A DNA stretch of 36,416 nt from a virus. Below are positions 8,469 through 25,025 of the stretch, piece by piece (the first letter of the stretch is position 1; every line of letters starts with the position of its first letter). A model generated the notes under the pieces. That model had not been told where the DNA came from, did no database searches, and was given only the letters and a program-made list of their open reading frames with translations. The DNA lies in the IMG/VR virus record IMGVR_UViG_3300023181_000058, positions 1 through 36,416 of that record; one strand, given 5' to 3'. The position numbers were made by a program, and so were the translations under genes.

Positions 8469-8951
8469 ATGAGATATATAATAGTAGTATTAGTGTGCGT
8501 GCTCTTATCGGGGTGCGACATACAAAAAGAAGCGTCTAAACGCAAAACGGAAACTTCTCTATCTGAGGACTGGGAGCAAAGGGAATTTAGGCCCTCGGCA
8601 GAGGTGCGATATAGCCCTCCTGCTAACGTAATACTCCGGGACACTACGATAGTAATTGTTAACTCGGAAGGATCTAAAATAAAGCTGCAATACGACGAAA
8701 AAGGCGTTATGCGAGAGGCAGAATGTTTGCCCGCGCTTATCGATTTGGTTACAAAAATGTCTAAACAGTTCGATCAATCCGAAAAAGAAAAGCAAAAAAG
8801 TAAAACCGAAGAATTCTCGAGCACCTGGATTTTGTATATTGTAATCGGTTTGGCTGTTGCTATATGTTTTGGTTTTTTCCTTACCTTCAAAACAATTACT
8901 AAAAATTCAGCCGCTTTAACGGCTATTTTGGATAAAATCGGAAACACGTAA
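8469..8951 (+). CDS. Lipoprotein with C-terminal TM segment, candidate u-spanin
   Basis: 160 residues. The N-terminus is a lipoprotein signal with lipobox LLSGC (Cys16). A periplasm-sized hydrophilic stretch of about 100 residues, partly charged helix (LIDLVTKMSKQFDQSEKEKQK), is followed by a membrane helix (about 119-142, STWILYIVIGLAVAICFGFFLTF). A lipid anchor at the N-terminus plus a C-terminal membrane helix is the topology of unimolecular spanins such as T1 gp11, which fuse outer and inner membranes at the end of lysis. Position after holin and lysozyme supports this. A terminator separates it from the lysozyme. Confidence 0.62.
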   Translation: MRYIIVVLVCVLLSGCDIQKEASKRKTETSLSEDWEQREFRPSAEVRYSPPANVILRDTTIVIVNSEGSKIKLQYDEKGVMREAECLPALIDLVTKMSKQFDQSEKEKQKSKTEEFSSTWILYIVIGLAVAICFGFFLTFKTITKNSAALTAILDKIGNT

Positions 8952-8984
8952 ACAATAAATCTAAGCTCTTTGTTTACCTATTAG

Positions 8985-9005
8985 CCCCTTATTTTAAGGG
9001 GTTTT
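8985..9005 (+). terminator. Rho-independent terminator after the u-spanin gene
   Basis: CCCCTTA and TAAGGGG form a 7-bp stem (8985-8991 with 8995-9001) around a three-base loop, followed by TTTT. Upstream, GTAAACAA at 8948 and TTGTTTAC at 8970-8977 can form a second hairpin. It closes the late transcription unit. Confidence 0.75.
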
Positions 9006-9013
9006 CTATTACT

Positions 9014-9141
9014 GTAAACTATATAAACAATAATATTATAAAATATATAATAGTAATTAATATAATAATATAGGGTAATAAAAAAATACATATTAGTATA
9101 TAATATAGAGTTTTGACGTTTTTTGTGTTTATATTGTTTAC
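9014..9141. repeat. Duplicated 128/129-bp AT-rich cassette, copy A
   Basis: Two 9-mers in direct tandem (9014-9022, 9023-9031) face two inverted 9-mers in tandem (9124-9132, 9133-9141) across a 92-bp A/T core. The same arrangement with clearly related sequence recurs at 24796-24924, including TATAAACAATAAT, AAAATATATAAT and AAAAAAATACATAT blocks. The two copies align over their whole length with small indels. Confidence 0.8.
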
Positions 9142-9218
9142 GCTTACCAATTTGCTGATTGTCAAACAGTTAAACGTAAACGATAAAAATAATTTAAATT
9201 TTTTTAGTTTACACTTGT

Positions 9219-9246
9219 TTTGTATTTGTTTTTGGTTATATATTTG
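9219..9246 (+). promoter_or_regulatory. Early promoter
   Basis: The -7 box TATATTTG (9239-9246) matches the consensus exactly. TTG-containing -33 candidates lie at 9215-9217 and 9219-9222. The start would be about 6 bases downstream, giving a leader of roughly 12 bases before ATG 9264. An inverted 9-mer at 9204-9212 lies just upstream and could be an operator. Confidence 0.65.
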
Positions 9247-9263
9247 CCTCAAACAAAACAGAT

Positions 9264-9689
9264 ATGGTTAACCTCAAAAAAATAATTACAGATAAGAAGC
9301 TCGACAAGATCCAACTTGCAAAGGCTTTATTCCCCTCAGTACTGCACCCGGTATTGGCCCTTGACAGGGTACTATCGGAAAAAGTAGAAATGACAGCCGA
9401 GCAATACAGGATACTGTCCGACATAACGCAAATCCCCATAGGCTTTCTAATCTCTGACAAGTGGCTGGTTTATTCCGATAGCCCTAACAATATTAAATTT
9501 CTAAGAGGCGACATAGTGGCGATACTGAATACAAAGAACTGGCTAACCGTTGTACATGAGTACAGAGACGGGGCTTACCTACCTACCTACGAGGTAAAGG
9601 CACAGAACGCACCGTTAAAGGTTTTTCTGCAAGACCTTACCGACATGGTAATCTCAAACAACGTAACACATTTAAAATCCATAAAATAA
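9264..9689 (+). CDS. Small HTH-type early regulator
   Basis: 141 residues. Residues about 1-65 read as a Cro/C1-like helix-turn-helix fold (KLDKIQLAKALFPS, then VLALDRVLSEKVEMTAEQYRILSDITQIPIGFLIS), where TQIPIGFLI matches the end of XRE-type domains. The C-terminal half is a small alpha/beta region of unknown role. It is the first gene after control region A, so it is well placed to sense or bind the 9-mer repeats there or to govern the early genes. No integrase accompanies it, so it need not be a lysogeny repressor. Confidence 0.6.
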   Translation: MVNLKKIITDKKLDKIQLAKALFPSVLHPVLALDRVLSEKVEMTAEQYRILSDITQIPIGFLISDKWLVYSDSPNNIKFLRGDIVAILNTKNWLTVVHEYRDGAYLPTYEVKAQNAPLKVFLQDLTDMVISNNVTHLKSIK

Positions 9690-9694
9690 TAATC

Positions 9695-10189
9695 ATGAGT
9701 ACAATTAATTTATCAGTAGACTTAAACGAGCTTAACTCGGATCAAGTACAAGCTTTATCTAATTTTGTTTCGTCTTTCGACAAATTCAGTGCCGTAACCG
9801 GAGAGCAAAACGCTATAAAAGTTGATATCTCCGAAGAGGCTAAAGAAGAGCCGGTAAAAAAGACAAGGGCTAAGAAAAACACAACCGTACAGGCGGGAGA
9901 GTTTGCAGGGCAAGAACGTACCGAGTCGGTAGCTGACGAGTACCAAGCTGCGGCTAACCTTACGGTAGTAGATGCGACAGACGCAGAGGATGACGACATA
10001 ATGGGCGATACCCCCGCAACTGCTAAAGCTTACTCCCTTGACGATGTAAGAGAGTTGGTAAAAGAAAAAGCCGTTAAGCACAGAGAGCTTATAAAAAACA
10101 GCATACCCGATTACGGCGGCACTAACGTAGCTACTATACCGGCGTCTAAGTACCCGGCTTTCGTTGAGTTCCTTAACGGGCTTAAATAG
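9695..10189 (+). CDS. Early protein of unknown function, acidic linker
   Basis: 164 residues in three parts: an N-terminal helix with heptads (about 1-35), a charged linker with a KKTRAKK cluster and an acidic run (DATDAEDDD), and a C-terminal helical domain (about 112-164, SLDDVRELVKEKAVKHRELI to FLNGLK). The C-terminal part resembles a small domain seen at the ends of phage early proteins that pairs a DVR helix with a final helix after a P-x-x-Y/F. The partner is unknown. Its stop overlaps the GTG start of the nuclease gene by one base. Confidence 0.55.
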   Translation: MSTINLSVDLNELNSDQVQALSNFVSSFDKFSAVTGEQNAIKVDISEEAKEEPVKKTRAKKNTTVQAGEFAGQERTESVADEYQAAANLTVVDATDAEDDDIMGDTPATAKAYSLDDVRELVKEKAVKHRELIKNSIPDYGGTNVATIPASKYPAFVEFLNGLK

Positions 10190-11565
10190 TGAATAGCCAG
10201 CTTAGGCAGCTTGTAAGGACTTACCTTAAAACCTTTAAGGCTAAGACACCGGAAGCGCAGGAGGCAGATATTAAAGCTGTCTCCTCGCAACTGGAAGTAT
10301 ACCAGGCTAACCGCCATGCAATGGCTACACACTATCAACAGGCTGCTATTATTTACCTAAGATACTTACGACGCATGGAACATAAAAAAGAAATACAGCA
10401 CAGCGAGAGAGCGCACGCCCTCTTATCGGCTTCGAGTGCTTCACGCTGGCTCAACTGTACACCAAGCCCCCGCCTTGAAGAGGGTTTCCCTAACGAGAGC
10501 AGCAGCTTCGCAGAGGAGGGAACGCTTGCACATGAGCTGGCAGAGGTTTTTTTAAAAGAAGCTTTAGGCTTAACCACAATAAAGAAAGCGACTCTTAAAG
10601 TAGAAGAGATTACAGAGAACGCCCTATACTCTCACGACATGGAGGACTATGTTATGAAACACATAGACTACGTACTCGAGCAGTATAATGAGGCTATGCG
10701 CAAAGACAAGCTCGCCGTTATCCTGATAGAGGAGAGGGTAGATATTACGCACCTAATTGAGGACGGCTTTGGTACTTGCGACGTCATAGTGATAGCTAAC
10801 GGAGTAATGGAGGTTATCGACCTTAAGTACGGCTTAGGGGTTCGCGTAGATGCTAAAGACAACAGCCAGTTAAAACTATATGCTTTAGGCGCATTAGAGG
10901 CTTACGACTTCTTATACGATGTACACACTGTTAAACTGACAGTAACGCAGCCTCGCATGGACTCGATAAGCTCGTGGGATATAACGGCCAAGGACTTAAG
11001 GGACTGGGGCGAAACCGTAGTTAAGCCTACCGCTAAAATAGCCTACTCAGGAGAGGGCGAGCAAAAGACGGGAGACTGGTGCCGTTTCTGTAAAGCCTCT
11101 GCCAGGTGCAAGGCTCAAAACGATTTAGCACTTGAAGCCGCTAAGCAAGCCTTTACCGATCCTAAGCTTTTAACCGACGAGGAGCTTGTAGAGATATACG
11201 CCAAAATACCTAATATTGAGAAGTGGTTTAAAGACGTCTCGGGGTATATGTATAAAGAGGCTTTAGACGGGAAAGCGTGGGAGGGCTACAAGCTGGTAGA
11301 CGGCCAAGCCCGCAGAGCATGGGTAGACGAGGAGGCAGTAAAGGAGAAACTTTATGGAGAGTACAAGACCGAGGAGTATATTAACGCTAAGGTTAAAGGT
11401 ATAGGCGACATTGAGAAACTGGTAGGTAAAAAGAATTTTCCTATTATGTTTGAAAACCTTGTCAAGTCTCCTAAGACTGCACCGTCTTTAGTTCCGGTAA
11501 GCGATACACGCCCAGCTATGGAGAAAACGGAATACTTCGCTGACGACTTCGAGGACGAACTTTAA
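10189..11565 (+). CDS. DUF2800 Cas4/RecB-like PD-(D/E)XK nuclease
   Basis: 458 residues. The family core starts near residue 70 (HALLSASSASRWLNCTPSPRLEEG). It shows GTLAHELAE (nuclease motif I with His), DVIV and VIDLKYG (the D...(D/E)-x-K catalytic pair, about 210-218), and a Cys set with the first Cys in WLNC and CRFCKASARC (about 302-311) that probably holds an iron-sulfur cluster as in Cas4/AddB. It probably acts as a DNA exonuclease in replication or recombination with the ssDNA-binding protein encoded next. The GTG start at 10189 adds about 62 helical residues ahead of the family core; ATG 10375 is an alternative start. Confidence 0.8.
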   Translation: MNSQLRQLVRTYLKTFKAKTPEAQEADIKAVSSQLEVYQANRHAMATHYQQAAIIYLRYLRRMEHKKEIQHSERAHALLSASSASRWLNCTPSPRLEEGFPNESSSFAEEGTLAHELAEVFLKEALGLTTIKKATLKVEEITENALYSHDMEDYVMKHIDYVLEQYNEAMRKDKLAVILIEERVDITHLIEDGFGTCDVIVIANGVMEVIDLKYGLGVRVDAKDNSQLKLYALGALEAYDFLYDVHTVKLTVTQPRMDSISSWDITAKDLRDWGETVVKPTAKIAYSGEGEQKTGDWCRFCKASARCKAQNDLALEAAKQAFTDPKLLTDEELVEIYAKIPNIEKWFKDVSGYMYKEALDGKAWEGYKLVDGQARRAWVDEEAVKEKLYGEYKTEEYINAKVKGIGDIEKLVGKKNFPIMFENLVKSPKTAPSLVPVSDTRPAMEKTEYFADDFEDEL

Positions 11566-11575
11566 TAAAATAAAG

Positions 11576-11607
11576 TTTGCATATATTAAAAAATAATTTT
11601 ACATTTA
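11576..11607 (+). promoter_or_regulatory. Promoter for the ssDNA-binding protein
   Basis: TTTG at 11576-11579 and TACATTTA at 11600-11607, spaced by 20 bases, fit the Bacteroidetes -33/-7 pattern with one mismatch. The leader to ATG 11642 would be about 28 bases. It allows high expression of a stoichiometric protein independently of the upstream genes. Confidence 0.55.
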
Positions 11608-11641
11608 CAATTCAAATATTAATAACGAAAATCACGTAATT

Positions 11642-12172
11642 ATGTCAACACAGATCACAACGGGTAAAGTCAGGTTAAGCTACGCGCACCTATTTGAAGC
11701 GGTAGCAATCCAGGAGGGGCAACAAAAAAAGTTTAGCACGGCTATACTTATCCCCAAAACAGACAAGGCAACTATTAACGCTATCAACGCAGCAGTAGAA
11801 GCCGCTAAGGAAAAAGATAAAGGCAAGTGGGGAGGCAAAATTCCTGCACCTTCTTTATTGAAAACCCCACTAAGGGACGGCGACGAAGAGAAGCCGGACG
11901 ATGAAAACTACGCAGGCATGTACTTCTTAAATGCATCATCTACAAAAATGCCTAAGGTAGTAGATAAAAACAAGCACGAAATTTTAGACGCTGACGAAGT
12001 ATATAGCGGCTGCTTTGCAAGAGTAGTCCTTAACTTCTACGGCTTTAATGTTCAGTCTAAAGGTGTAGCCGCAGGATTACAAGCGGTGCAAAAGCTTGAG
12101 GACGGCGACAGATTAGGCGGCGGCGGTGTAAACATAGACGAAGCCTTTGGCGACGACGGAGACGACCTGTAG
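11642..12172 (+). CDS. ssDNA-binding protein, DUF2815/Enc34 type
   Basis: 176 residues matching the layout of the DUF2815 (phage Enc34) single-stranded DNA-binding family. The N-terminal strand reads ITTGKVRLSYAHLFEA, then FSTAILIPKTDKATI, a long helix, GMYFLNASSTKMPKVVD and the aromatic FYGFN segment. The acidic C-terminal tip (DEAFGDDGDDL) is like the protein-interaction tail of SSBs. It should coat ssDNA during phage replication and may partner the Cas4-like nuclease just upstream. It has its own promoter and is followed by a 462-bp noncoding region. Confidence 0.82.
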   Translation: MSTQITTGKVRLSYAHLFEAVAIQEGQQKKFSTAILIPKTDKATINAINAAVEAAKEKDKGKWGGKIPAPSLLKTPLRDGDEEKPDDENYAGMYFLNASSTKMPKVVDKNKHEILDADEVYSGCFARVVLNFYGFNVQSKGVAAGLQAVQKLEDGDRLGGGGVNIDEAFGDDGDDL

Positions 12173-12334
12173 ACTTAATAGTTGAAAGTATCTCAACTCC
12201 AACAGTAACAGAGTATAACTATAACTGCGGGCATATGTTTTAGCCGCTTGACATGGCGCTAAACAAATAAAACATTCTTTCGATTATAGAAGTTAATAAT
12301 AGTCGGCCTTTAAAGTTAGGCACATAACTTGAAA

Positions 12335-12394
12335 AGAGTAGCAGGTTATTGGTATGGGCTTTATTGCCTGCGGGTTCGAGTCCCGCCTACTCTC
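12335..12394 (+). tRNA. tRNA-like element 1 (degenerate; acceptor and T arm only)
   Basis: A perfect 7-bp acceptor stem (12335-12341 with 12387-12393, AGAGTAG/CTACTCT) and a perfect 5-bp T stem with canonical loop (GCGGG TTCGAGT CCCGC, 12370-12386) are intact. Only 28 bases lie between them, against over 40 in a normal tRNA. A D-loop-like ATTGGTA is present, and GGGC/GCCT can close a short arm with a six-base loop, but no standard D arm plus anticodon arm can be drawn. No amino acid is assigned. It is a tRNA remnant or a truncated tRNA mimic. Confidence 0.45.
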
Positions 12395-12467
12395 AAATTG
12401 TTTCGATTATTGATTAAAGCCGACAAGGCGGCTTGCTAACGCGAACCTGTATCAGGGCCTTGTATTT

Positions 12468-12536
12468 GGGGGAGTAGCTTAATTGGATAAAGCAGAAATG
12501 GCCACAACGTTACAGGTTCGACTCCTGTCTCCTTCA
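12468..12536 (+). tRNA. tRNA-like element 2 (degenerate anticodon arm)
   Basis: The acceptor stem GGGGGAG/CTCCTTC (two G-U pairs), TA, a 4-bp D stem GCTT/AAGC with loop AATTGGATA, and the T arm ACAGG TTCGACT CCTGT are all canonical. Between base 26 and the T stem only 17 bases remain. If ACGTT (12507-12511) is the variable region, the anticodon arm is reduced to 12 bases centred on TGGCCA, as if the loop were lost. If the 17 bases are read as a full arm, stem mismatches appear and CCA or CAC would be the anticodon. It is probably not a decoding tRNA. Confidence 0.45.
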
Positions 12537-12552
12537 CAAAATAAAATCCCCC

Positions 12553-12619
12553 AAACCCTGCTTAAACTCAACATTAAGAATTTGATACTTTTTAATGTAC
12601 TCATTAAGCGGGGTTTTTT
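12553..12619 (+). terminator. Long rho-independent terminator
   Basis: A 13-bp stem (12553-12565 with 12604-12616, one U-G pair) encloses an inner 7-bp stem ACATTAA/TTAATGT, and the run TTTTTT ends at 12619. It insulates the polymerase gene at 12635 from the ssDNA-binding protein/ncRNA transcript, so a promoter or readthrough is needed for polA. Confidence 0.82.
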
Positions 12620-12634
12620 ACCTAATAACCTGAC

Positions 12635-14593
12635 ATGAAAAAAAACCTTTACTTAGATATTGAGACTTTCTCAAGTGTCGATATTGCCGACTGCGGTAGT
12701 TACAAGTATTTCGAGTCTTTAGACTTCGAGATATTAATGGTAGCTTTCGCCTTTGACAAAGAACCCGAGCAGATTATAGACCTTACTTGCGAGCCTTTCC
12801 CCGACTGGCTTAAAGCCGCTTTAGTCGACCCTTCTATTATCAAGCACGCCCATAACGCTAACTTTGAAAGACGCGCTTTTATCGCCTATGGCATAGAGAC
12901 GCCGATAGAGCAATGGGAATGCTCACAGGTTAAAGCTGCTTATTGTGGCCTGCCTCTCCCCCTTGACGGAGTAGGTAAAGCTCTTAAGCTTGACAGCTCC
13001 GTAGCTAAAATATCCGAGGGTAAAGCTTTAATTAAATATTTCTGTTGCCCTGTTAAGCCTACTAAGGTTAACGGTATGCGATCACGTAACTTACCGCAAC
13101 ATAACCCGGAAAAGTGGGAACGGTTTAAAACTTATTGTATAGGGGACGTCAAAGCAGAGAGGGCCATATTAGACATATTGTCTATATACGAACTCCCACA
13201 ATCCGAAAAAATAAACTACATACTCGACCAGGAGATAAACGACAGAGGCATTCTTATCGATTTGGGCATGGCGAAAAATGCCTATGAAATCGATAACCTT
13301 TTCTCTGCCGAACTCTATAAAAGGCTACAGGAGTTAACCGGCCTCGCTAACCCTAACAGCCCCGCCCAGTTAGGCAAATGGCTCGGGGATAAGTTGGGCG
13401 TATCTGTACCGAGTATAGCTAAAGAAGCTATCGAGAATTTACTAAAAGGCTGTAAAAATGAAGAGGTAGAAAGAGCCCTTAAGATTAGACAGCTCGGGGG
13501 TAAAACCTCAACAAAGAAATATTTAGCAATGCTAAACTGTGCCTGCGACGACAAGAGAGGTCGCGGGCTTTTCCAGTTCTATGGAGGCAACCGGACAGGA
13601 CGTTGGGCAGGGCGTTTAATACAAATGCAAAATCTACCTAAGAACCATTTAGCCGACTTACAGGGTGCGCGTAATATAGTGGCGTCAGGGGATTACGATC
13701 TTATCACAATGCTTTATGACGACGTCTCAAGCGTACTGAGCCAGCTTATCCGTACCACGTTTATAGCTAAGCCCGGTCACACTTTTGCCGTAGCTGACTT
13801 TAGCGCGATAGAGGCGCGGGTTATAGCGTGGCTATCAGGGGAGCAATGGAGGCTTAGGGTTTTCAATACACACGGTAAAATTTACGAGGCTTCGGCCTCA
13901 AAGATGTTTAACATACCTATAGAGTCGGTTACTAAGACCTCAGACTACAGGGCGAGAGGTAAAGTCGCCGAGCTCGCTCTTGGCTTCCAGGGCTCAGTCG
14001 GAGCATTAATAAAAATGGATAAAGACAAAGAGATTAAAGAGTCAGAAATGCCCGGCATAGTGAAGAGGTGGAGAGCTGCGAGCCCTGCAATCGTACAACT
14101 TTGGAAAGATTTAGAGGGTTGTGCTTTAAGGGCTGTAAAGACCCGTAAGAAAATAATAACTATACATAAGGGCTTAGAGTTCGACTATGACGGCAACGTA
14201 CTTACTATTAAATTACCTTCGGGGAGAAAGCTGTTTTATCAATCGCCAAGCCTTACGAAAAACCAATGGGGTAACGACTCATTAAGGTATAAGGGTATGG
14301 ATCAGGAGACCAAGCAATGGGGCTATGTCGATACCTACGGCGGTAAAATAACTGAGAACATAGTACAGGCCATTGCCAGGGATTTGTTAGCCGAGGCTAT
14401 GCTTAGAGTAAATGAGGCAGGCTTTGACATAGTCCTACACGTACATGATGAGGCCGCATGTGAGATACCTTTAACTGGGGCAGAGGCTTTGCTTACTAAT
14501 TTATGTAATATAATGGGCGAGCGTGTAAGCTGGGCAGAGGGTTTACCCCTTGCGGCTGACGGCTACCTTACCCCGTTCTACAAAAAAGATTAA
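12635..14593 (+). CDS. polA: Family A DNA polymerase with 3'-5' exonuclease domain
   Basis: 652 residues, the usual length for phage family A polymerases. The N-terminal DEDD proofreading domain shows Exo I YLDIETFSS (D8, E10), Exo II HAHNANFERR and Exo III CIGDVKAERAI. The polymerase domain shows motif A VADFSAIEARV (near D388), motif B RGKVAELALGFQGS and motif C HVHDE (near residue 604). It should replicate the phage genome. No 5'-3' exonuclease domain is present. It begins 15 bases after a strong terminator, and a 28-bp repeated element follows its stop. Confidence 0.93.
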   Translation: MKKNLYLDIETFSSVDIADCGSYKYFESLDFEILMVAFAFDKEPEQIIDLTCEPFPDWLKAALVDPSIIKHAHNANFERRAFIAYGIETPIEQWECSQVKAAYCGLPLPLDGVGKALKLDSSVAKISEGKALIKYFCCPVKPTKVNGMRSRNLPQHNPEKWERFKTYCIGDVKAERAILDILSIYELPQSEKINYILDQEINDRGILIDLGMAKNAYEIDNLFSAELYKRLQELTGLANPNSPAQLGKWLGDKLGVSVPSIAKEAIENLLKGCKNEEVERALKIRQLGGKTSTKKYLAMLNCACDDKRGRGLFQFYGGNRTGRWAGRLIQMQNLPKNHLADLQGARNIVASGDYDLITMLYDDVSSVLSQLIRTTFIAKPGHTFAVADFSAIEARVIAWLSGEQWRLRVFNTHGKIYEASASKMFNIPIESVTKTSDYRARGKVAELALGFQGSVGALIKMDKDKEIKESEMPGIVKRWRAASPAIVQLWKDLEGCALRAVKTRKKIITIHKGLEFDYDGNVLTIKLPSGRKLFYQSPSLTKNQWGNDSLRYKGMDQETKQWGYVDTYGGKITENIVQAIARDLLAEAMLRVNEAGFDIVLHVHDEAACEIPLTGAEALLTNLCNIMGERVSWAEGLPLAADGYLTPFYKKD

Positions 14594-14598
14594 TAAAA

Positions 14599-14626
14599 AG
14601 TGTTAAAGTTTTAAAACGTATTACAT
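14599..14626. promoter_or_regulatory. 28-bp repeated element with palindrome, copy 1
   Basis: Identical to 21282-21309. It contains GTTTTAAAAC, a perfect 10-bp palindrome (14608-14617). It starts six bases after the polymerase stop and lies upstream of the gene at 14667. A shared operator or upstream promoter element is the simplest reading. Confidence 0.7.
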
Positions 14627-15056: not shown

Positions 15057-15392
15057 ATGGCACAACACACACGACCGGAACGCTCCGACAACAGGGGCGG
15101 ACATAAGAAAAAAACTACTACAAAGAAAATGTTTACCCACAGGGTAGAGGAGAGCAAGCACGAGGAGCTGCACCGATACGCCGATAAGCTTAACGAGGAG
15201 GTAAAGAATGGAATACCCACATTTACAATAAGTGAATTTAAAGAAGGGGCTGAAACTTTTACACCTTCTTTAAAACTTAGCTGGTGCGAGGCAAAGCTCA
15301 AAATAGAAAATTTAAGGCAAAAATTTTGTGGAGATAAAACAGTATATTTCGAAATAGTAAAGAACGAACCATGCAACACGACGGAAAAATAA
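15057..15392 (+). CDS. Early hypothetical protein, basic N-terminus
   Basis: 111 residues, not recognised. The first 25 residues are strongly basic (RNA/DNA-binding or disordered, GGHKKKTTTKK), followed by a helix (VEESKHEELHRYADKLNEEV) and a mixed C-terminal part with two Cys. Its 3' end overlaps the primase/helicase gene by 22 bases in another frame, suggesting coupled translation. Confidence 0.55.
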   Translation: MAQHTRPERSDNRGGHKKKTTTKKMFTHRVEESKHEELHRYADKLNEEVKNGIPTFTISEFKEGAETFTPSLKLSWCEAKLKIENLRQKFCGDKTVYFEIVKNEPCNTTEK

Positions 15393-17746
15393 ATATCGCT
15401 ACCGGCTTTAGTGCCAAGTCCACCGTTTGGAAAAATAAAACTTGGAATTGGTCGGACTTCGTCGCAAGGATTAAAGAGCCTAACCATACTAACGAAACCT
15501 TTAAGGAGTTCATAGGCGCAAGCAAAGAAGAGCAAAGCAAGATTAAGGACGTAGGCGGCTACGTGGGGGCTTACCTGAGAAACGGAAAGCGCAGCCCCTC
15601 TAACGTTGTACACCGTCAACTCGCTACACTCGATATTGATTTTGCACATTTAGACTTTTGGGACGACTTTACTATGCTCTTCGGTTGCGCTGCTATCCTG
15701 CACGGAACGCACAAGCATTCAGATTTAGACCCGAGATACAGACTGTTAATACCTTTAAGCCGTGAGGCCACCCCTGACGAGTATGTAGCCGTAACACGTA
15801 AGATCGCCGGGCTCTTAGGTATAGAACTTTTTGATAATACTACCTTTGAGACTAACAGGCTTATGTTTTGGCCCTCTACACCGAAAGACGTCGAGTACTA
15901 TTTCGAGTATCAGGACGGTCCCTGGATAGATGTAGACGCAATGCTTGAAAGTTATATAGATTGGAAGGATACCAGCCTATGGCCGACAGCAGATAAGAAA
16001 ATAAGGGAGCTTGCCGGAGCTATGCAAAAGCAGGAGGATCCGTTAACTAAGTCCGGTATAGTCGGGGCTTTCTGCCGTACCTATACTATTAGCGAGGCGA
16101 TAGCTAAATTCTTATCGGAGGAGTATATCCCGACTATTAAAGACGACCGTTACACCTATACCAAAGGCTCAACAGCCGCCGGGCTTATGGTGTACGACGA
16201 TAAATTTGCGCACTCTCATCACGGTACTGACCCATGTAGTGGCAGGACTTGTAATGTTTTCGACCTGGTGCGCCTTCACAAGTTCGGGCACTTAGATAAC
16301 GAGGGGGGCACCCAGCGCCCTAAAAGCTTCGCAGCTATGGAGGACTTTGCCCGTGCTGATAAAGAAGTTAAAAAGACTATAGCCGTAGAGGTATTAGAGG
16401 ACAACAAATATGATTACTTTGCCGACGATGTAGAAAACGTTGAAGGGGACCAGGACAATATCGAGTGGATGACAGAGCTTGAGGCAGACGCCAAAGGCAA
16501 ATATTTATCAAGTGCCATTAATATAAATACTATCTTCTCTAACGACCCGAGGCTTAAAGATACTTTCAAGCGCAACGACTTTGACGGTAAGCGCTATGTG
16601 TTTCGCTCGCTGCCCTGGCGCAAGGTTACAACTCCCGAGCCGATTAAGGACGTAGATTATAGCGGACTGCGCAACTATATTGAGAGCATTTACGGCATAG
16701 CCGGGACGCTTAAGATAGACGACAGCCTCGCCCTCGAATTTGAAAAGCAGAGTTTCCACCCTATAAAAGATTATCTTAAGGGTTTAACGTGGGACGGTAT
16801 AGAGCGTATCGATACTTTACTTATTGATTACTTCGGGTGCCTGGATAATATCTACACACGAGAAGCAAGCCGTAAGACTTTAGTCGCAGCAGTTAAGAGG
16901 GTATTCTTACCCGGTTGTAAGTACGATAACGTCCTTACCCTCGTAGGTCCGCAGGGGACTAATAAAAGCACCTTCTTTAAGAAGCTGGGCCAGGATTGGT
17001 TTAGTGATACCTTTATGACGGTGCAGGGTAAAGAGGCATTAGAGCAGATACAGGGGAGTTGGATAATAGAAATGGCTGAGCTGGCAGGGCTGCGCAAGGC
17101 AGAGGTCGAGGCGATAAAACATTTTACCTCTAAGCAACAGGACGAGTTTAGACCGGCCTACGCCCGCACCTCGGAGGTATATAAAAGGCAATGCATATTC
17201 GTAGCTACTACAAATAAAAAAGACTTCTTAACAGACCCCTCGGGTAATCGTAGGTTTTGGCCTATTGAGGTTATAAGAGAGCGCAGGACAAAAAACGTTT
17301 GGACAGATTTAGATGCAGAGGTCAATCAGTTATGGGCCGAGGCTATGCAACTCTTTAAGAACGGGGAGAATGTTTTCTTTAGCGATCAAGCCGAGGAGCT
17401 TGCCCTTAAGGAGCAGCGCAAGCACTCCGAGACAGACGAGAGACGCGGTATAATTGAGGACTACTTAGACGCCCGACTTCCCGAGGACTGGGACAAACTC
17501 GATATTTACGAGCGCAGGCAACACCTTGACAGTCCCGCAGCTAAAGAGGGCAGACTTCGGGAGGTTGTTTGTATGGCCGAAATATGGTGCGAGTGCCTCG
17601 GTAAGAACAAGGAGGACATGAGCCGATACAACACCCGCGAGATTAACGATATAATGAAGTCGTTAGAGGACTGGGACTACCACGCAACTACTAAAAACTT
17701 CGGCTATTACGGCAAACAGAAATATTACTCAAGACAAGAATTATAA
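15371..17746 (+). CDS. Prim-pol/VapE-type helicase fusion
   Basis: 791 residues. The N-terminal AEP-like primase domain (about 20-200) has the acidic pair LDID (near residue 87) and THKHSDLDPRYRLLIPL with the catalytic-type His (near 115). The C-terminal VapE/SF3-like ATPase has Walker A GPQGTNKST (near 527), Walker B WIIEMAEL, a HFTSKQQDEFRPAYAR segment and sensor/arginine elements ATTNKKDFLTDPSGNRRFWPI. It probably primes and unwinds DNA at the replication fork. It overlaps its neighbours at both ends (22 and 1 bases), placing it in the replication operon. VapE N-terminal families in Bacteroidota look similar. Confidence 0.87.
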   Translation: MQHDGKINIATGFSAKSTVWKNKTWNWSDFVARIKEPNHTNETFKEFIGASKEEQSKIKDVGGYVGAYLRNGKRSPSNVVHRQLATLDIDFAHLDFWDDFTMLFGCAAILHGTHKHSDLDPRYRLLIPLSREATPDEYVAVTRKIAGLLGIELFDNTTFETNRLMFWPSTPKDVEYYFEYQDGPWIDVDAMLESYIDWKDTSLWPTADKKIRELAGAMQKQEDPLTKSGIVGAFCRTYTISEAIAKFLSEEYIPTIKDDRYTYTKGSTAAGLMVYDDKFAHSHHGTDPCSGRTCNVFDLVRLHKFGHLDNEGGTQRPKSFAAMEDFARADKEVKKTIAVEVLEDNKYDYFADDVENVEGDQDNIEWMTELEADAKGKYLSSAININTIFSNDPRLKDTFKRNDFDGKRYVFRSLPWRKVTTPEPIKDVDYSGLRNYIESIYGIAGTLKIDDSLALEFEKQSFHPIKDYLKGLTWDGIERIDTLLIDYFGCLDNIYTREASRKTLVAAVKRVFLPGCKYDNVLTLVGPQGTNKSTFFKKLGQDWFSDTFMTVQGKEALEQIQGSWIIEMAELAGLRKAEVEAIKHFTSKQQDEFRPAYARTSEVYKRQCIFVATTNKKDFLTDPSGNRRFWPIEVIRERRTKNVWTDLDAEVNQLWAEAMQLFKNGENVFFSDQAEELALKEQRKHSETDERRGIIEDYLDARLPEDWDKLDIYERRQHLDSPAAKEGRLREVVCMAEIWCECLGKNKEDMSRYNTREINDIMKSLEDWDYHATTKNFGYYGKQKYYSRQEL

Positions 17747-18856: not shown

Positions 18857-19185
18857 TAATAGCATACATTGCGCACCCAGTAGGCGGAAACGTCGGGGGT
18901 AACATAGAAAAAATATTAAGGATAGTAAGGGAGATAAATTTACAGGAGCCGGACGTAGTGCCCTTTGTGCCTTACCTGGCCGACATCTTGGCTATGGACG
19001 ACGCCAATCCGATAGAACGTGAAAGAGGTATTAAGAATGATACCCACGTACTAAAGAACGGAGGTGTAAACCAAATACGTTTATACGGCCACAAGATAAG
19101 CTCCGGCATGAGAGCAGAGTTAAACCTTGCCAAGTCGTTAGGTATCGAGGTGCGGTGCAGCGAACATTTAAAAGCCGAATTATGA
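18853..19185 (+). CDS. Nucleoside 2-deoxyribosyltransferase-like protein (DUF4406/7768 type)
   Basis: 110 residues. The opening IIAYIAHPVGGNVGGNIEKI, the central VPFVPYLADIL and the later INxIRLYG/SSGMRAELNLAKSLGIEV pattern fit small phage proteins related to nucleoside deoxyribosyltransferases, which exchange bases on deoxynucleosides. The catalytic Glu expected in that fold could be in MRAEL (about 86-90). Role in nucleotide metabolism is inferred. Coupled by four-base overlaps to the nuclease and the adenine methylase. Confidence 0.6.
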   Translation: MIIAYIAHPVGGNVGGNIEKILRIVREINLQEPDVVPFVPYLADILAMDDANPIERERGIKNDTHVLKNGGVNQIRLYGHKISSGMRAELNLAKSLGIEVRCSEHLKAEL

Positions 19186-19904: not shown

Positions 19905-21283
19905 TGAACGAAACCAACCTACACAACTACCAGCACCGGACAGTTAACCACATTATATCCAACAAGCACGCTGGGGCTTTCCTGGATATGGGACTTGGTA
20001 AGACTGTAAGCACCTTAACCGCCATTAAGAAGTTAATGTACGAGGAGTTAGAAATCGACGCCGTGCTTGTGATCGCCCCTAAGCGGGTAGCCGAGTCCGT
20101 ATGGTCTGCCGAGCTTGCTAAGTGGGCGCACCTTAAAGGCCTGACTATATCAAAGATTGCAGGCGATGAAAAGAAGCGTAAGGCAGCTATAAGGACTAAA
20201 GCCGATATATACACCCTTAGCCGTGACAACGTCGTATGGTTCCAAAGCACTTACCAAAGCGTTAAGGTTTTCGGTAAAGACGTTATGCTCGTTATTGACG
20301 AGAGCAGCAGCTTTAAAAATCAGGCGTCTAAACGTTTCAAAGCCCTTAAACATTTACAGCCTGATTTTGCAAGGGTTGTGATACTTACCGGGACGCCTGC
20401 CCCTAACGGCTTAATGGATCTTTGGAGCCAGCTATGGCTGTTGGACCGTGGCGAAAGGCTGGGCAAGACTATAAGCCTATTCCGTGAGCGTTGCTTCACT
20501 AAGAGTTATAACGGCTTTACTTATGAACTTAAACAGGACCGCGAGAAGGATATACACAACGCTATTAAGGATATAGTTATCTCTATGAAAGCCGAGGACT
20601 ATTTAGACTTACCGCCGGCAATCTACAATAATATAGATATAACCCTGCCACCTTCAGTTATGGATAAGTACCTGGCCTTTGAGCGTGATAGGGTTATGGA
20701 AATGCTTAACAGCGAAACCGAGATCACAGCTATGAACGCTGCAGCATTAAGCAACAAGCTGTTGCAGTTTGCAGGGGGTGCTGTGTATGACGAGGACAGG
20801 ACAGTACATGAGATACACACCCTCAAGCTGGAAGCCGCCGAGGAGGTTGTAGAAGCCGCCAACGGCAAGCCCGTCCTTATGGCTTACACCTACAAGCACG
20901 AACTCGATAGGCTTATGGTTAAGCTTAAGGCCTATAAGCCCGTTAAGCTTGAGAGCGACCAGCATATAAACGACTGGAACGCCGGCAAGATACAAGTACT
21001 TTTAATGCATCCAGCCTCAGGAGGGCACGGCCTTAACTTGCAAGACGGCTCTAATATTGCGTTGTGGTACTCTTCTAACTGGTCGCTTGAGTTATACCAG
21101 CAGTTTAATAAAAGACTTGACAGGCAAGGGCAGCAGGAGCGCGTTATCATTAACAGGCTGGTAGCGTTAGGCACAGAGGATGAGCGTGTTATAGCCGCAC
21201 TCGATAACAAGGCCGACACACAGGAGAGCCTTATGCAGTCGATAAAAGCTAAGATAGAGAAGTACTCTAATATGTTAAAATAG
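19904..21283 (+). CDS. SNF2-family DEAD/DEAH-like helicase
   Basis: 459 residues. RecA-like domain 1 has a Q-like LHNYQHRTV, Walker A DMGLGKT (28-34), Walker B VIDESSSFKN (near 131-140) and motif III LTGTPAPNGLMDLWSQ. Domain 2 has HPASGGHGLNLQ (motif V) and NWSLELYQQFNKRLDRQGQ (motif VI). SNF2 proteins of this size act on double-stranded DNA and usually accompany VRR-NUC in phages. It starts on the base where the methylase stops. Its stop overlaps the second 28-bp repeated element. Confidence 0.88.
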   Translation: MNETNLHNYQHRTVNHIISNKHAGAFLDMGLGKTVSTLTAIKKLMYEELEIDAVLVIAPKRVAESVWSAELAKWAHLKGLTISKIAGDEKKRKAAIRTKADIYTLSRDNVVWFQSTYQSVKVFGKDVMLVIDESSSFKNQASKRFKALKHLQPDFARVVILTGTPAPNGLMDLWSQLWLLDRGERLGKTISLFRERCFTKSYNGFTYELKQDREKDIHNAIKDIVISMKAEDYLDLPPAIYNNIDITLPPSVMDKYLAFERDRVMEMLNSETEITAMNAAALSNKLLQFAGGAVYDEDRTVHEIHTLKLEAAEEVVEAANGKPVLMAYTYKHELDRLMVKLKAYKPVKLESDQHINDWNAGKIQVLLMHPASGGHGLNLQDGSNIALWYSSNWSLELYQQFNKRLDRQGQQERVIINRLVALGTEDERVIAALDNKADTQESLMQSIKAKIEKYSNMLK

Positions 21284-21309
21284 TGTTAAAGTTTTAAAAC
21301 GTATTACAT
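21282..21309. promoter_or_regulatory. 28-bp repeated element with palindrome, copy 2
   Basis: Exact copy of 14599-14626, again with GTTTTAAAAC (21291-21300) and again directly downstream of a replication-gene stop codon, whose last two bases it includes. It lies upstream of a consensus -7 box at 21326. Confidence 0.7.
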
Positions 21310-21325
21310 ATTAAAATAAGCGGTG

Positions 21326-21333
21326 TATATTTG
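21326..21333 (+). promoter_or_regulatory. Promoter -7 box for the 21.4-24.5 kb genes
   Basis: TATATTTG is an exact match to TAnnTTTG. It lies 17 bases after the 28-bp repeat and 33 bases before ATG 21366. The expected -33 site falls at the end of the repeat; no clear TTTG is seen there. Confidence 0.6.
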
Positions 21334-21365
21334 TACTCAGATAACAACTAATAAACTTCAATATT

Positions 21366-21542
21366 ATGAAAACTACAACCACAAGAGACACTAACACCTC
21401 GTTTTTCAAAGTAATTAAAAACGGCGCAGGATCTGAATTTTCAAGAAAAATAGAAAAGGGCTCGCCTGAATACGGAAACGCCTGTAACCTATTTCACAAA
21501 AATGGTATTGAGTTATCTGTCGGAAATTCAGTATCGGTATAA
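21366..21542 (+). CDS. Small early protein, unknown
   Basis: 58 residues, first gene after the promoter at 21326. It is polar with an N-terminal Thr run (MKTTTTRDTNTSFFKV) and one Cys, and has no membrane segment. Composition and promoter position suggest a real early host-interaction gene, but there is no family match. The 66 bases to the next gene show nothing further. Confidence 0.5.
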   Translation: MKTTTTRDTNTSFFKVIKNGAGSEFSRKIEKGSPEYGNACNLFHKNGIELSVGNSVSV

Positions 21543-21608
21543 TGCACCACGTCGATAAACTTTAACAACCACCACGCTATTTAAGAAAATAGCATAAAAC
21601 CTTAAATT

Positions 21609-22067
21609 ATGAAAAACTTAATCCTTTTACTCGCCCTCGTGCTGCTAAGCTCATGCGATGCTGACAGCCAAACACCTGTAACGCCTGAGAACGTTGCACA
21701 CGTAACTCAAACACCTGTGCCGGCGCACATGGTCGGAGAGTATAGAGCTATCGAGGGACACGACTACTCAAGCAATAAGCCCTATGAGCAGGGTGCGGTC
21801 TCTATAACTTTAGAAGCTATAGAGGTAAGCTTATCGCAGCACAGCTACAGCCTAAACCTTAGCGACTATGCTACTACCTCAAACCTTTTAGAGGACTGCT
21901 ATTATGACATATATGTAAACGGTGTTGTAATCAGGATAACCGACTTAGTTGCTAAGTACGGAGAGATTCGCATAAAGATAGACGGGGTAACTATCGCCAT
22001 ACTTAAGAAGGTAGTAGACACGCCGCAAGAGCCCGAGCAACCTAACACACCTGTAATAATAAACTAA
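21609..22067 (+). CDS. Early lipoprotein
   Basis: 152 residues with a lipoprotein signal (MKNLILLLALVLLSSCD, lipobox LSSC, Cys16). A Pro/Thr-rich spacer precedes a beta-rich domain (about 60-135) with repeated strand motifs such as YDIYVNGVVIRI and IRIKIDGVTIAIL. The tail is Pro-rich. It is expected at the cell envelope facing the periplasm or surface. A phage lipoprotein made early is a candidate for superinfection exclusion or envelope remodelling (inference). A second lipoprotein is encoded at 23194. Confidence 0.68.
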   Translation: MKNLILLLALVLLSSCDADSQTPVTPENVAHVTQTPVPAHMVGEYRAIEGHDYSSNKPYEQGAVSITLEAIEVSLSQHSYSLNLSDYATTSNLLEDCYYDIYVNGVVIRITDLVAKYGEIRIKIDGVTIAILKKVVDTPQEPEQPNTPVIIN

Positions 22068-22071
22068 CCTT

Positions 22072-22173
22072 ATGACTTACGAGCAACAAATAGAGGCGGT
22101 ACTAAAGCTATCGCCTTGCATCACGAGAGCCGGCGCAATATCAATCTTAAAAACTTTAGACTATGACAATTGA
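22072..22173 (+). CDS. Very small early ORF
   Basis: 33 residues (MTYEQQIEAVLKLSPCITRAGAISILKTLDYDN), starting five bases after the lipoprotein stop and overlapping the next gene by 11 bases. Tight packing and a helical, UBA-like pattern support translation, but the length makes this uncertain. Confidence 0.4.
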   Translation: MTYEQQIEAVLKLSPCITRAGAISILKTLDYDN

Positions 22174-22357
22174 AAATGTATCAATCGGGGATAGGTTTAA
22201 TACTTCTCGAGGGGTTTTCGAGGTAATAGACTTTAGAGAAACCCGGTCTTTAGTTTCAGGTGCCTTAACTAAATTAGTGGTACGGGCAGATAATATATCT
22301 ACTGATATGCAAGCAGAGTTTTCACTGCAAGAGGTAAAACGCTCCCGCATAGTATGA
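22163..22357 (+). CDS. Small beta-rich early protein
   Basis: 64 residues, predicted as a five-strand barrel-like fold (NVSIGDRFNTSRGVFEVIDF, then LTKLVVRADN and FSLQEVKRSRIV). The pattern is seen in small phage proteins of unknown role that carry a G-D-R-F or G-D turn followed by strands. It starts within the preceding mini-ORF. No function assigned. Confidence 0.52.
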   Translation: MTIENVSIGDRFNTSRGVFEVIDFRETRSLVSGALTKLVVRADNISTDMQAEFSLQEVKRSRIV

Positions 22358-22377
22358 AAAACCCTAAACAATAACCT

Positions 22378-22644
22378 ATGGAAACAATTAACCTTGAACA
22401 AATAAAAAACCAAGTGGCTAAAAAACACGGGTTTAAAGCATGGAAAGATGTAGGCGTTATTTACAGATACATCTATACAGATGAAATTGCCGAGTATTAC
22501 GCCCAACAATGCTGTGATGAACAGATAAAAGCATGTTGTGAAAATGCAAAAATACATGAAGACTGGAATGCAGACTATACTCAATGCAATTATTATGTTG
22601 ATGAAGATTCTATCCTATCTACCCCTAACGTAGTAAAACCGTGA
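22378..22644 (+). CDS. Small Cys-rich early protein
   Basis: 88 residues, with a helical stretch containing two CC pairs (QQCCDEQIKACCENAK, about 44-59) that could bind metal, and a polar C-terminus. Similar short proteins (IAEYYAQQCCDEQIKA-like) occur in Bacteroidota phages; the function is unknown to me. Its TGA overlaps the GTG start of the next gene. Confidence 0.55.
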   Translation: METINLEQIKNQVAKKHGFKAWKDVGVIYRYIYTDEIAEYYAQQCCDEQIKACCENAKIHEDWNADYTQCNYYVDEDSILSTPNVVKP

Positions 22645-22880
22645 GAGCCTTTAAACTTCTTAAGGACTGGGTAGACGCCTCTCGAGCAGTTGACAGGCAT
22701 AACGTGGCTAACCTTGTGTTAGTGGACCTTAACTACCATCACGGCGAGAAGCTGCCGACCGAGGACGTTATAGCGATATTCGAGGAGGTAGAGCAGAGAT
22801 TAACCGAGGCACTTAAAGCCCGGAGGGAGGAAATAACACAAGAGTTACACAGTATAAACGAATACCTTTTAAAAAGATGA
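22641..22880 (+). CDS. Small helical early protein
   Basis: 79 residues, starting at GTG 22641 (overlap GTGA). It is almost entirely helical, with a C-terminal coiled coil rich in Glu, Arg and Leu (about 45-78). It overlaps the following ATG by four bases. No family recognised; it is probably an oligomeric accessory protein. Confidence 0.5.
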   Translation: MRAFKLLKDWVDASRAVDRHNVANLVLVDLNYHHGEKLPTEDVIAIFEEVEQRLTEALKARREEITQELHSINEYLLKR

Positions 22881-23197
22881 AAAGAACTATAATAGTAGGA
22901 CGTCCCGGATCCTTCGCAAGTAAGAAAGCTTTAGAAATTGCAGGGCTAAAAAACACCCTCATTGTATCGGATTTAAGTTTTAAACACGTTGACCGAGATA
23001 CAAAAGCTATAATATTTGAGAACGTTAGATTTAAAGACACCTTACAAGTACACAACCTTATGATGTGTGAAGCTATCGAGTTTCGCCCTGTCTATGAAAA
23101 AGGGAAAACTTCTATAACGCCACATTTAGTATTTATAACTGACAACCTGCCGAAGTGGGTAGAGACTATCTATAAACCCGAAATTATAAGAATATGA
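22877..23197 (+). CDS. Possible degenerate P-loop/AAA-like mini-protein
   Basis: 106 residues arranged like half an AAA+ domain. TIIVGRPGSFASKKALEI occupies the P-loop position but is not a proper Walker A. AIIFENV (about 44-50) stands at Walker B with Glu, and LVFITDNLPKW (about 84-94) looks like the sensor 1 strand. It is too short for an active ATPase and may be an inhibitor or partner of a host or phage ATPase. The similarity is a visual impression. Overlaps both neighbours by four bases. Confidence 0.48.
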   Translation: MKRTIIVGRPGSFASKKALEIAGLKNTLIVSDLSFKHVDRDTKAIIFENVRFKDTLQVHNLMMCEAIEFRPVYEKGKTSITPHLVFITDNLPKWVETIYKPEIIRI

Positions 23198-23490
23198 AAC
23201 ACTTAATTATTTTACTGGCTTTGTTTGGGCTAACGTCCTGCAAGCAACACGAGCCTAAATACGTCGGATGCGTCGAGCAGGAGTTTAGCATAAGCTACGT
23301 GGACGAGAGAGCGCCTAAGCTGTTTACCTATGTATGGTACAGAGATAAGGTAGTAGAGTCTTGGGGCGACGAGGTGGGTAACATTACCGACTCATTAGCT
23401 CAGGCTCGCAGAGACGAGGGGCTTGCCCTTCTCAAGATAATAAAGGAGATAAACGTTAAACCGATAACACTTAATAAGCATGGAAAGTAA
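23194..23490 (+). CDS. Second early lipoprotein
   Basis: 98 residues with signal MKHLIILLALFGLTSCK (lipobox LTSC, Cys16). The mature part is short, with one more Cys (YVGCVEQEF), a beta stretch (KLFTYVWYRDKVVESWGD) and a helix. Envelope location is expected. Together with the protein at 21609 it suggests that early infection alters the cell surface. The 3' end overlaps the next gene by 11 bases. Confidence 0.62.
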   Translation: MKHLIILLALFGLTSCKQHEPKYVGCVEQEFSISYVDERAPKLFTYVWYRDKVVESWGDEVGNITDSLAQARRDEGLALLKIIKEINVKPITLNKHGK

Positions 23491-23683
23491 ACAAGTATTG
23501 GAACCAGGGACTACGTATTTTATAGACGCTACGGAATGCCATAGAGGCGTATATCAAGGAAAGAAAGAAGGTATTTTGTTTTTCGAGCCTTTGGATAGGG
23601 TAGGCTACGCGAGAGATGACAAAGGCCGTGTTATGTTTTATGACAACGGATATAAATATAAAGAGGTAGCCAATGGCGATTAA
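23480..23683 (+). CDS. Small early protein
   Basis: 67 residues, likely a compact beta fold (GTTYFIDATECHRGVYQGKKEGILFFEPLDRVGY). No family recognised. It overlaps the lipoprotein upstream and the DnaQ-like exonuclease downstream by 11 bases each, so it is translated in the same chain. Confidence 0.5.
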   Translation: MESKQVLEPGTTYFIDATECHRGVYQGKKEGILFFEPLDRVGYARDDKGRVMFYDNGYKYKEVANGD

Positions 23684-24263
23684 AATCCTATACTATGACT
23701 GCGAGACTACCGGCACCGACGAGCGTAAGCACGGCATACACCAGCTTAGCGTCTACATGGAAATAGACGGGAAGGTAGTAGAGACTATCGACTACAAGGT
23801 AGCACCACACCCTAAGGCAGCGTGTGTGCCGGAAGCCCTCGCGGTAGGGCAAGGTGTAACCGAGGAGCAGATAAGGGCGTACGAGCCTATGGAGGTTGTT
23901 TACCGCCGCTTTGTCGCTATGCTGGCCAAGTATGTAGACAGGTACGATAAGAAGGATAAAATCTACTTATGTGGGTTTAACTCTGCCGACTTTGATAACC
24001 GCTTCTTAAGGGCTTGGTTCAAGCATAACGGAGACAGCTACTTCGGTGCTTACTTCTACGGCGAGGACTTAGACGTCAGGATCCTTGCAGCGCAGTACCT
24101 GCTTAAAAGGCGTGGGCGCATGGAGAACTTCAAGCTTATGAGCGTTGCCCGGGAGCTTGGCATAACGGTAGACGAGAGCAGGCTGCACGACGCCTTATAC
24201 GATATTGAGCTAACCCGGGCTTGTTATCGGATTGTAACGGGTTTAGACGAGGAGGAACTTTAA
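23673..24263 (+). CDS. DnaQ-like 3'-5' exonuclease
   Basis: 196 residues of the DEDDh family. Exo I is YYDCETTGTD (D9, E11), Exo II GFNSADFDNRFL (Asp near 113-115) and Exo III HDALYDIELT (His and Asp near 177-182). This is a stand-alone exonuclease and is separate from the proofreading domain of the polymerase at 12635. It might trim replication intermediates, degrade host DNA, or act on RNA. It follows a string of small early genes by an 11-base overlap. Confidence 0.87.
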   Translation: MAIKILYYDCETTGTDERKHGIHQLSVYMEIDGKVVETIDYKVAPHPKAACVPEALAVGQGVTEEQIRAYEPMEVVYRRFVAMLAKYVDRYDKKDKIYLCGFNSADFDNRFLRAWFKHNGDSYFGAYFYGEDLDVRILAAQYLLKRRGRMENFKLMSVARELGITVDESRLHDALYDIELTRACYRIVTGLDEEEL

Positions 24264-24276
24264 AACTAATATAGAT

Positions 24277-24489
24277 ATGTCAAAAAGAGATTTAACGATT
24301 TACGTAGACGAAGTGATGAGCTCAGCTTACGCACATCAGGTAAAAGTAGAGCTTTCCGGAGCCAAGATAAACGAAGTTATGGAGCATTTTACTGTTAAAG
24401 AGGTTATAGAATACTTCGGCGCGGAGGACGTTTTAGCAGAAATAGAAAAAGAAGAGGTTTTAAAATACTTCGGGATAGATTTAATTTAG
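24277..24489 (+). CDS. Small repeat-containing early protein
   Basis: 70 residues, last gene of the early module. From about residue 34 the sequence shows four nine-residue units (VMEHFTVKE, VIEYFGAED, VLAEIEKEE, VLKYFGIDL), i.e. amphipathic helices with an aromatic position. Acidic overall. Could be an interaction module or inhibitor; no function known. A hairpin terminator follows within 30 bases of its stop. Confidence 0.55.
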   Translation: MSKRDLTIYVDEVMSSAYAHQVKVELSGAKINEVMEHFTVKEVIEYFGAEDVLAEIEKEEVLKYFGIDLI

Positions 24490-24517
24490 TCGGAGAGTAA
24501 ACAATAACTTTTATTAA

Positions 24518-24558
24518 GTGTAAACAATACTAAAATTATTGTTTACGCTTTTCTTTTG
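24518..24558 (+). terminator. Terminator built from inverted 9-mers
   Basis: 24518-24529 pairs with 24537-24548 (12 bp, one G-U) around a seven-base loop, followed by TTTTCTTTT. It would end the early transcript after the gene at 24277. The stem consists of two inverted copies of the GTAAACAAT repeat, so DNA-level binding and RNA-level termination may overlap. Confidence 0.68.
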
Positions 24559-24795
24559 TCTGGTAGCAAGGGTTTAGCGGTTGTGTAAACAAAGTAAACA
24601 ATACTTTGAGAAAAACTTTAGCGCAGTGTTGCAACTATATCACACCAGGTGGTCAAAATGTTATAAAAATGTGTATAAAATGTAAAGCGTTTAACAACAG
24701 CAGTTTAATGTAATCGGGGCGTAAACAGAGAAACAAGATTTTAGGTTTGATTGTTTACCACTTTAGCTCAGTAATGACGGGCTTTTACTATTACT

Positions 24796-24924
24796 ATAAA
24801 CAATATAAACAATAATAATATAAAATATATAATTAATAATAATATAGTATTATATAGTGAAAAAAAATACATATAATTATATATAATATAGTGAAAGTTG
24901 TTTTTTGTTGTTTACATTGTTTAT
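24796..24924. repeat. Duplicated 128/129-bp AT-rich cassette, copy B
   Basis: Two tandem ATAAACAAT 9-mers (24796-24804, 24805-24813) face two inverted ones (24907-24915, 24916-24924) over a 93-bp A/T core. Layout and sequence match 9014-9141, with small indels and substitutions. Confidence 0.8.
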
Positions 24925-25012
24925 TTGAACGTTAACCCCTGTAAACATTGGGGTTTATAAAGAAACAACAAAATTTTCATTTGTTTATTTGCATTATTCG
25001 ATACAGGTTTGA

Positions 25013-25020
25013 TATATTTG
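25013..25020 (+). promoter_or_regulatory. Late promoter, -7 box next to the terminase start
   Basis: TATATTTG matches TAnnTTTG exactly. TTTG at 24988-24991 (21 bases upstream) can serve as -33. The start of transcription would lie near 25025-25027, at or next to ATG 25026, implying a leaderless or nearly leaderless mRNA. Confidence 0.65.
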
Positions 25021-25025
25021 CAAGT

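Follow-up and report, generated by a model that had tools for sequence, protein, structure and literature searches.

In the staphylococcal pathogenicity islands (SaPIs), the C-terminal domain of the Rep helicase recognizes iterons and the origin lies directly downstream of rep; in the case of Cch2 of the staphylococcal cassette chromosome SCCmec, the C-terminus on its own binds the putative origin, and the direct repeats are needed (PMC7581432). Two origins in one siphophage genome are known from SPP1, where oriL and oriR are similar sites about 13 kb apart, made of repeats and an AT-rich DNA unwinding element (DUE), and where oriR was proposed to be a fork-stalling/barrier or late-origin site (PMC6316719). 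Here we analyzed a virus record of 36,416 bp (IMGVR_UViG_3300023181_000058; G000, called the window throughout), a siphophage-like contig whose genes are essentially all encoded by the plus strand and in which two cassettes of short repeats, C1 and C2, are found (Table 1). Judging from sequence comparisons, these cassettes are very probably paired iteron-type replication origins that are read by the C-terminal domain of VapE, the primase-helicase of the phage. Among the readings offered in an original prediction made from the letters of this DNA (a paired origin system, a phage-encoded regulator array or a segregation site), the first is the one that the evidence supports.

The best reading of the cassettes is a SaPI-type iteron origin that is doubled in the manner of SPP1 oriL/oriR. 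With the SaPI and SCC systems (SaPI5 PriRep1, SaPIbov1 Rep and SCCmec Cch2) the window shares a homologous initiator helicase, iterons as the recognition element and short iterons flanking an AT-rich region. A C-terminal reader, published for SaPI Rep and Cch2, is suggested in our case by covariation; furthermore, the same kind of array stands beside vapE in Firmicutes prophages. It differs from them in having two sites, upstream of the early and the late operons and neither beside vapE, in its iteron sequence, and in that the phages appear to infect Bacteroidota. The likeness to SPP1 lies in two distant, similarly organized sites with repeats and an AT-rich core. However, SPP1 has an origin binder (gp38), a loader (gp39) and a DnaB-type helicase, three jobs that we propose for the single VapE, and no gp38-type organizer, gp39 loader or DnaB-type helicase was seen among the window proteins scanned (part of the open reading frames, ORFs). 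Moreover, oriL is located within the initiator gene, and the SPP1 repeats are described as direct rather than as inverted doublets. A further likeness may be drawn to the alpha protein of P4, a fused primase, helicase and origin binder with short iterons and two separate cis sites (ori1 and crr), although P4 is a small satellite and, as far as we are aware, its alpha primase and iteron sequence are unrelated to those of the window. Searches of the open-access literature gave no hits for iterons together with VapE and phages or for iterons at Flavobacterium phage origins.

In the window, the late genes start at 25,026, reach the right end and continue over 1-8,951, and the early/replication region occupies 9,264-24,489; C1 thus precedes the early genes and C2 the late genes, as had been predicted. 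The two sites are 15.8 kb apart and bracket the 15-kb early region, and the 16-kb extent first given to the feature (8948-25025) is merely their separation. Each cassette follows one plan: an AT-rich core of roughly 100 bp is flanked on its left by two plus copies of the 9-mer at a 9-bp period and on its right by two minus copies, and about 45 bp beyond each doublet stands an outer copy, minus on the left and plus on the right. Exact matches to RTAAACAAT number 11 against 1.04 expected (none of 100 shuffles reached 11), and all of them are confined to 8948-9141 and 24497-24924. A scan with the shorter RTAAACAA gave 23 matches, 15 of which fall in the two cassette regions (17.5 per kb inside versus 0.22 per kb outside). 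When 100-bp stretches of the window are ranked by AT content, the top two are those at the C1 and C2 cores. The two cassettes can be aligned from end to end, with the closest agreement starting at the doublet and reaching into the left core half.

Together, the alignment and the confined motif density bear out the original prediction of one inverted 9-mer layout at two sites. Its arrangement of the core-flanking 9-mers also holds, but the copies do not all match, since three of the eight core-facing 9-mers are imperfect (two of four in C1, GTAAACTAT at 9014 and ATAAACACA at 9124, and one of four in C2, GTAAACAAC). The additional outside copies that it mentioned are present; what it missed is the C2 half module and the fixed distance of 42-46 bp that separates every core-facing doublet from an oppositely oriented outer site.

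Using VapE (15371-17746) as the query, we retrieved 46 viral contigs, mostly metagenomic and possibly incomplete, plus the Croceibacter phage P2559Y, and the same arrays were seen in many of them; a scan by DNA pattern alone gave 93 stretches. The doublet was present in 36 of 45 whole records, compared with 0 of 45 for a reversed-pattern control. All the doublet-bearing contigs retrieved carry the same VapE-containing replication module, often with no further homology to the window, and the single contig without the module (G001) likewise has no doublet. In a k-mer search performed without a prior motif, GTAAACAA ranked first among the clustered words of many of these contigs. Dozens of phages, often with unrelated structural genes, share the cassette layout: one site, with the C1 layout, is upstream of the helix-turn-helix (HTH) gene, and the other is upstream of terminase genes that are apparently unrelated to each other. 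Among 50 cassettes from 35 contigs, the doublet has a period of 9 in 39, the core measures 79-122 bp (median 100) and is AT-richer than its own genome in all 50, and the outer minus site is located at 43-48 bp in 81% of the cassettes having one. An extra C2-type half module is also found in L009, L012 and L020. Because the left core halves (40 bp) are more alike within a genome than between genomes (0.685 vs 0.564; permutation p about 5e-4), the sequences suggest that the cassette pair of one genome may be under concerted evolution.

Some further properties of these sites were observed. Beyond the left doublet, the core half often begins with TAATATTATAAAAcctTTTaA, and its two copies in G016 are 100% identical over 40 bp; alternating tatatacgcg tracts are present in some cores. 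The spacer between the outer site and the doublet (8978-9013 and 24759-24795 in the window, and its counterparts in relatives) contains a weak dyad, AGCCC..GGGCT in many phages and ATTGAAAATCAAT in others. Dyads of the ATTGAAAATCAAT type resemble an integration host factor (IHF) site, and the spacer of L035, G041 and G042 matches, as judged by eye, WATCAANNNNTTR, which we take to be the IHF consensus. The dyad in the C1 left spacer also looks like a lysis-operon terminator. In the circular genome of P2559Y (KC688701.1), the record begins inside the terminase-side cassette (42880-43153 and 1-240); the predicted origin is thus split over the record ends and is unannotated.

The iterons covary with VapE. 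Variant iterons occur in the same layout, namely GTAAACAG (G033), GTAAACCA (L280, L281 and L287), RGAAACAA (L273, L276 and L277/L278) and GGAAACAG (G042), and in these as well as in AGGAACAA arrays the copies within one phage switch together. The iteron classes were assigned manually on the basis of counts in the DNA, and inspection by eye had pointed to the C-terminal pattern before a formal column test was run. The test covered 2,797 columns from eight module proteins; of these columns, 493 reach at least 97% conservation among the phages with RTAAACAA, and for VRR-NUC and SNF2 just three of the four position-2 variants could be aligned. The results showed that N776 of VapE is the only one of the 493 conserved columns that differs in all position-2 variants, being invariant in 48 RTAAACAA phages and replaced by T, K, V and R in the four phages with a T-to-G change at position 2. 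No single conserved column differs in all position-7/8 variants; R752-Y753 of VapE is the only adjacent conserved pair, out of 141, that is altered in all three position-7/8 lineages (RW, PY and NF). In a tree built without the VapE C-terminal domain, the variant lineages are scattered among the RTAAACAA phages, with weak support for L273/L276. In two further contigs fetched for a changed residue 776, G045 and G046 (S in both), the RTAAACAA doublet is absent, and YTAAACAA-like and AGGAACAA arrays are found instead. In the structural model of VapE, R752 and Y753 precede a helix (756-764) and N776 ends a strand (768-776) of a helix-helix-strand-strand domain compatible with a winged helix, and these three residues may touch DNA. 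This strong covariation leads us to propose that the C-terminal domain reads the iteron.

The phages G041-G044 had been regarded as VapE phages without sites. This was abandoned, as G042 has the same layout with GGAAACA iterons; GGTACTT/GGTAACT repeats are found upstream of the HTH gene in G041 and G044, and G041, G043 and G044 failed a stricter layout scan.

VapE is related over its full length to PHROG 256 ('DNA helicase') and contains a VapE-like domain, and its closest solved structure is PriRep1 (7pds), matched by phmmer over residues 364-782 (E 1e-70) and by Foldseek with an AlphaFold2 model of mean pLDDT 84.9 (E 5e-36, 33% identity). It is the only replicative helicase found among the window proteins scanned. 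A VapE 59% identical to that of the window, with residues of the RTAAACAA type, is also encoded by L300 (CALYRM010000079), from a metagenome-assembled genome labelled Clostridia; this is probably a Bacteroidota-type phage contig that was wrongly binned.

The position of iteron arrays was then compared across the VapE loci of other lineages with a gene-blind detector of inverted iterons with a doublet. Among the 29 loci outside the two-site phages that have a significant cluster (a few of them near-duplicates), 22 have a cluster at 10-250 bp on the 3' side of the vapE stop codon and two more have one about 1.15 kb 3' of vapE. The iterons of these vapE-side arrays are lineage-specific (e.g. TGTAACCAA, GTATCCATA and GTGTTAC), and the layout is often the same despite the other iterons (e.g. 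L290, L306, L312 and L318). In the Firmicutes prophages L302-L307, L311, L312, L316, L318 and L319, SaPI-like arrays whose iteron differs from lineage to lineage stand about 30-250 bp beyond the end of vapE; from their sequence these arrays are probable prophage origins. The Erysipelotrichales locus L331 contains, apart from its vapE-side array, a long tandem array of 9-bp units with TTATTGC words (4201-4630, about 40 copies on both strands). This array and the low-complexity repeats in L313, L043, L045 and L048 matched the generic scan and were rejected as origins.

With regard to binding, melting, initiation and the division of labor between the sites, we infer the following course. The winged-helix-like C-terminal domain of VapE would bind the RTAAACAA iterons, and VapE hexamers, or parts of them, would assemble on the inverted doublets at both sides of the AT-rich core. 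The core would then melt, VapE would load itself and prime, and PolA together with the Enc34-type single-stranded DNA (ssDNA)-binding protein would extend from the VapE primers; the outer sites and the conserved spacer may help to wrap or bend the complex. The main origin is probably C2, given its larger number of iterons (11 exact RTAAACAA copies vs 4 on the C1 side) and its retention when the site is single. C1 would be its duplicate, serving as a second origin or as a fork-stalling site like that proposed for SPP1 oriR.

Several observations weigh against paired origins read by VapE. The HTH-side site is missing from G020, G021, G022 and G025, which keep the other site, and pairing is therefore not obligatory; such a missing site is weak evidence, because most of the contigs are metagenomic and may be incomplete. 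The layout scans detected no clear iteron array in G047, G048 and G050, three phages with a changed residue 776. The independent switches are few, about three to four for position 2 and three for positions 7/8, and the L273/L276 branch is weakly supported. The cassettes do not adjoin vapE, unlike those of SaPIs, the nearest site being about 6 kb off, and both abut promoter-like sequences, making a transcriptional role possible. Finally, GC skew, a check suggested along with the original prediction, showed no sign change at either C1 or C2; with nearly all genes on the same strand, this result is uninformative.

A transcriptional role is compatible with paired origins if VapE, when bound at the cassettes, starts replication and also represses (C1) or activates (C2) the adjacent promoters, a variant that we regard as tentative. 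The distance from the last core-facing iteron to the promoter-like site is just 78 and 64 bp in the window, and most clusters of the relatives have a TAnnTTTG at a distance of about 150 bp or less. This evidence is positional: TTTG..TAnnTTTG has two matches in the window, one after each cassette, and only their position carries weight because this number is no higher than chance. Speculatively, VapE might even couple a two-site start of replication, at both early/late boundaries, with the early-to-late switch, with a code of specificity that assigns iteron positions 1-2 to residue 776 and positions 7-8 to residues 752-753.

It is improbable that the cassettes are instead operator arrays, whose 9-mers would be bound by an early regulator, be it the 9264 HTH protein or a different one, that switches the adjoining early and late promoters. 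The promoter-like site and the first early or late gene do follow each cassette, and the HTH gene is conserved with the module. However, no conserved HTH column changes with the motif (6 of 132 HTH columns are conserved among identical-motif phages), and the covariation points to VapE; in addition, an operator needs no AT core between inverted iterons, and a similar array lies just after vapE in the Firmicutes relatives. The two binders named in the original prediction are poor candidates as well: the gene of the 18225 HTH protein is absent from site-bearing relatives, and the 9264 protein is highly variable among identical-motif phages with no conserved column that tracks the motif, though its gene is always near C1. 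On this sequence evidence an HTH-read array is not borne out; a regulatory side effect on the adjacent promoters may exist.

Terminase recognition (pac/cos) or segregation sites are very unlikely: C2 is directly upstream of the terminase in relatives, but the same sites stand beside unrelated terminases, the second copy is far from the terminase, the sites track the replication module and not the packaging genes, and no ParA/ParB-type gene turned up among the window proteins scanned. Equally far-fetched is a host DNA-binding protein as the reader of the 9-mer, which would fit its being common to phages of many sources, as the copies in a phage switch jointly and the switches track VapE residues.

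Table 1 Features of the two cassettes and of the neighboring genes in the window (mm, mismatch; signs after positions give the iteron strand).
Feature	Position	Strand	Remarks
Cassette C1, early-operon side	8948..9212	.	iterons 8948+, 8970-, 9014+ (1 mm), 9023+, core, 9125- (1 mm), 9134-
C1 outer iterons			9176+ (1 mm), 9205- (1 mm)
C1 left spacer, 36 bp	8978..9013	+	dyad AGCCCCTTATTTTAAGGGGTTTT; spacer length kept in relatives
C1 left doublet, core-facing	9014..9031	+	GTAAACTAT ATAAACAAT
C1 AT-rich core, putative DUE	9032..9124	.	88% AT
C1 right doublet, inverted, core-facing	9125..9141	-	
Promoter-like site, Bacteroidota type, C1 to early operon	9219..9246	+	TTTG..TATATTTG
Small HTH-like protein, first early gene	9264..9689	+	module-conserved; no Pfam or PHROG match
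DUF2800 / PD-(D/E)XK nuclease, replication module	10189..11565	+	
Enc34-type ssDNA-binding protein	11642..12172	+	
Family A DNA polymerase	12635..14593	+	
VapE-type primase-helicase, proposed self-loading initiator	15371..17746	+	homologous to SaPI5 PriRep1 (7pds)
VapE C-terminal winged-helix-like domain, residues 729-791	17555..17743	+	R752, Y753, N776: proposed iteron-reading residues
C2 half module, without AT core	24497..24602	.	iterons 24497+, 24520+, 24539-, 24585+, 24594+
Cassette C2, full module, terminase side	24721..24988	.	iterons 24721+ and 24729+ (1 mm each), 24751-, 24796+, 24805+, core, 24908-, 24917-
C2 outer iterons, right			24961+ (1 mm), 24981-
C2 AT-rich core, putative DUE	24813..24907	.	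90% AT
Promoter-like site, Bacteroidota type, terminase/late operon	24988..25020	+	TTTG-N21-TATATTTG
First late gene, probable terminase small subunit	25026..25514	+	named by position; no PHROG match
Terminase large subunit	25501..26823	+	

Regarding the neighboring genes, the annotated terS of P2559Y occupies the same place as the first late gene of the window, which has its ATG at 25026 and for which the TTG start at 24948 is probably unused. Methyltransferase-like genes at 17746-18228 and 19155-19904 are located within the replication operon and outside the conserved module.

If paired origins read by VapE are the correct reading, a concrete origin and a named initiator would be available for a large, almost uncharacterized phage group, whose nearest described relatives infect Bacteroidota, and the SaPI-type pair of self-loading helicase and origin would be a general phage replicon. 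The matched iteron and VapE variants would provide a natural series in which to test how such a helicase recognizes DNA. Moreover, with the duplication at both operon boundaries, the question raised by SPP1, namely why there are two origins, could be put to the test in another replication system, unrelated to the first.

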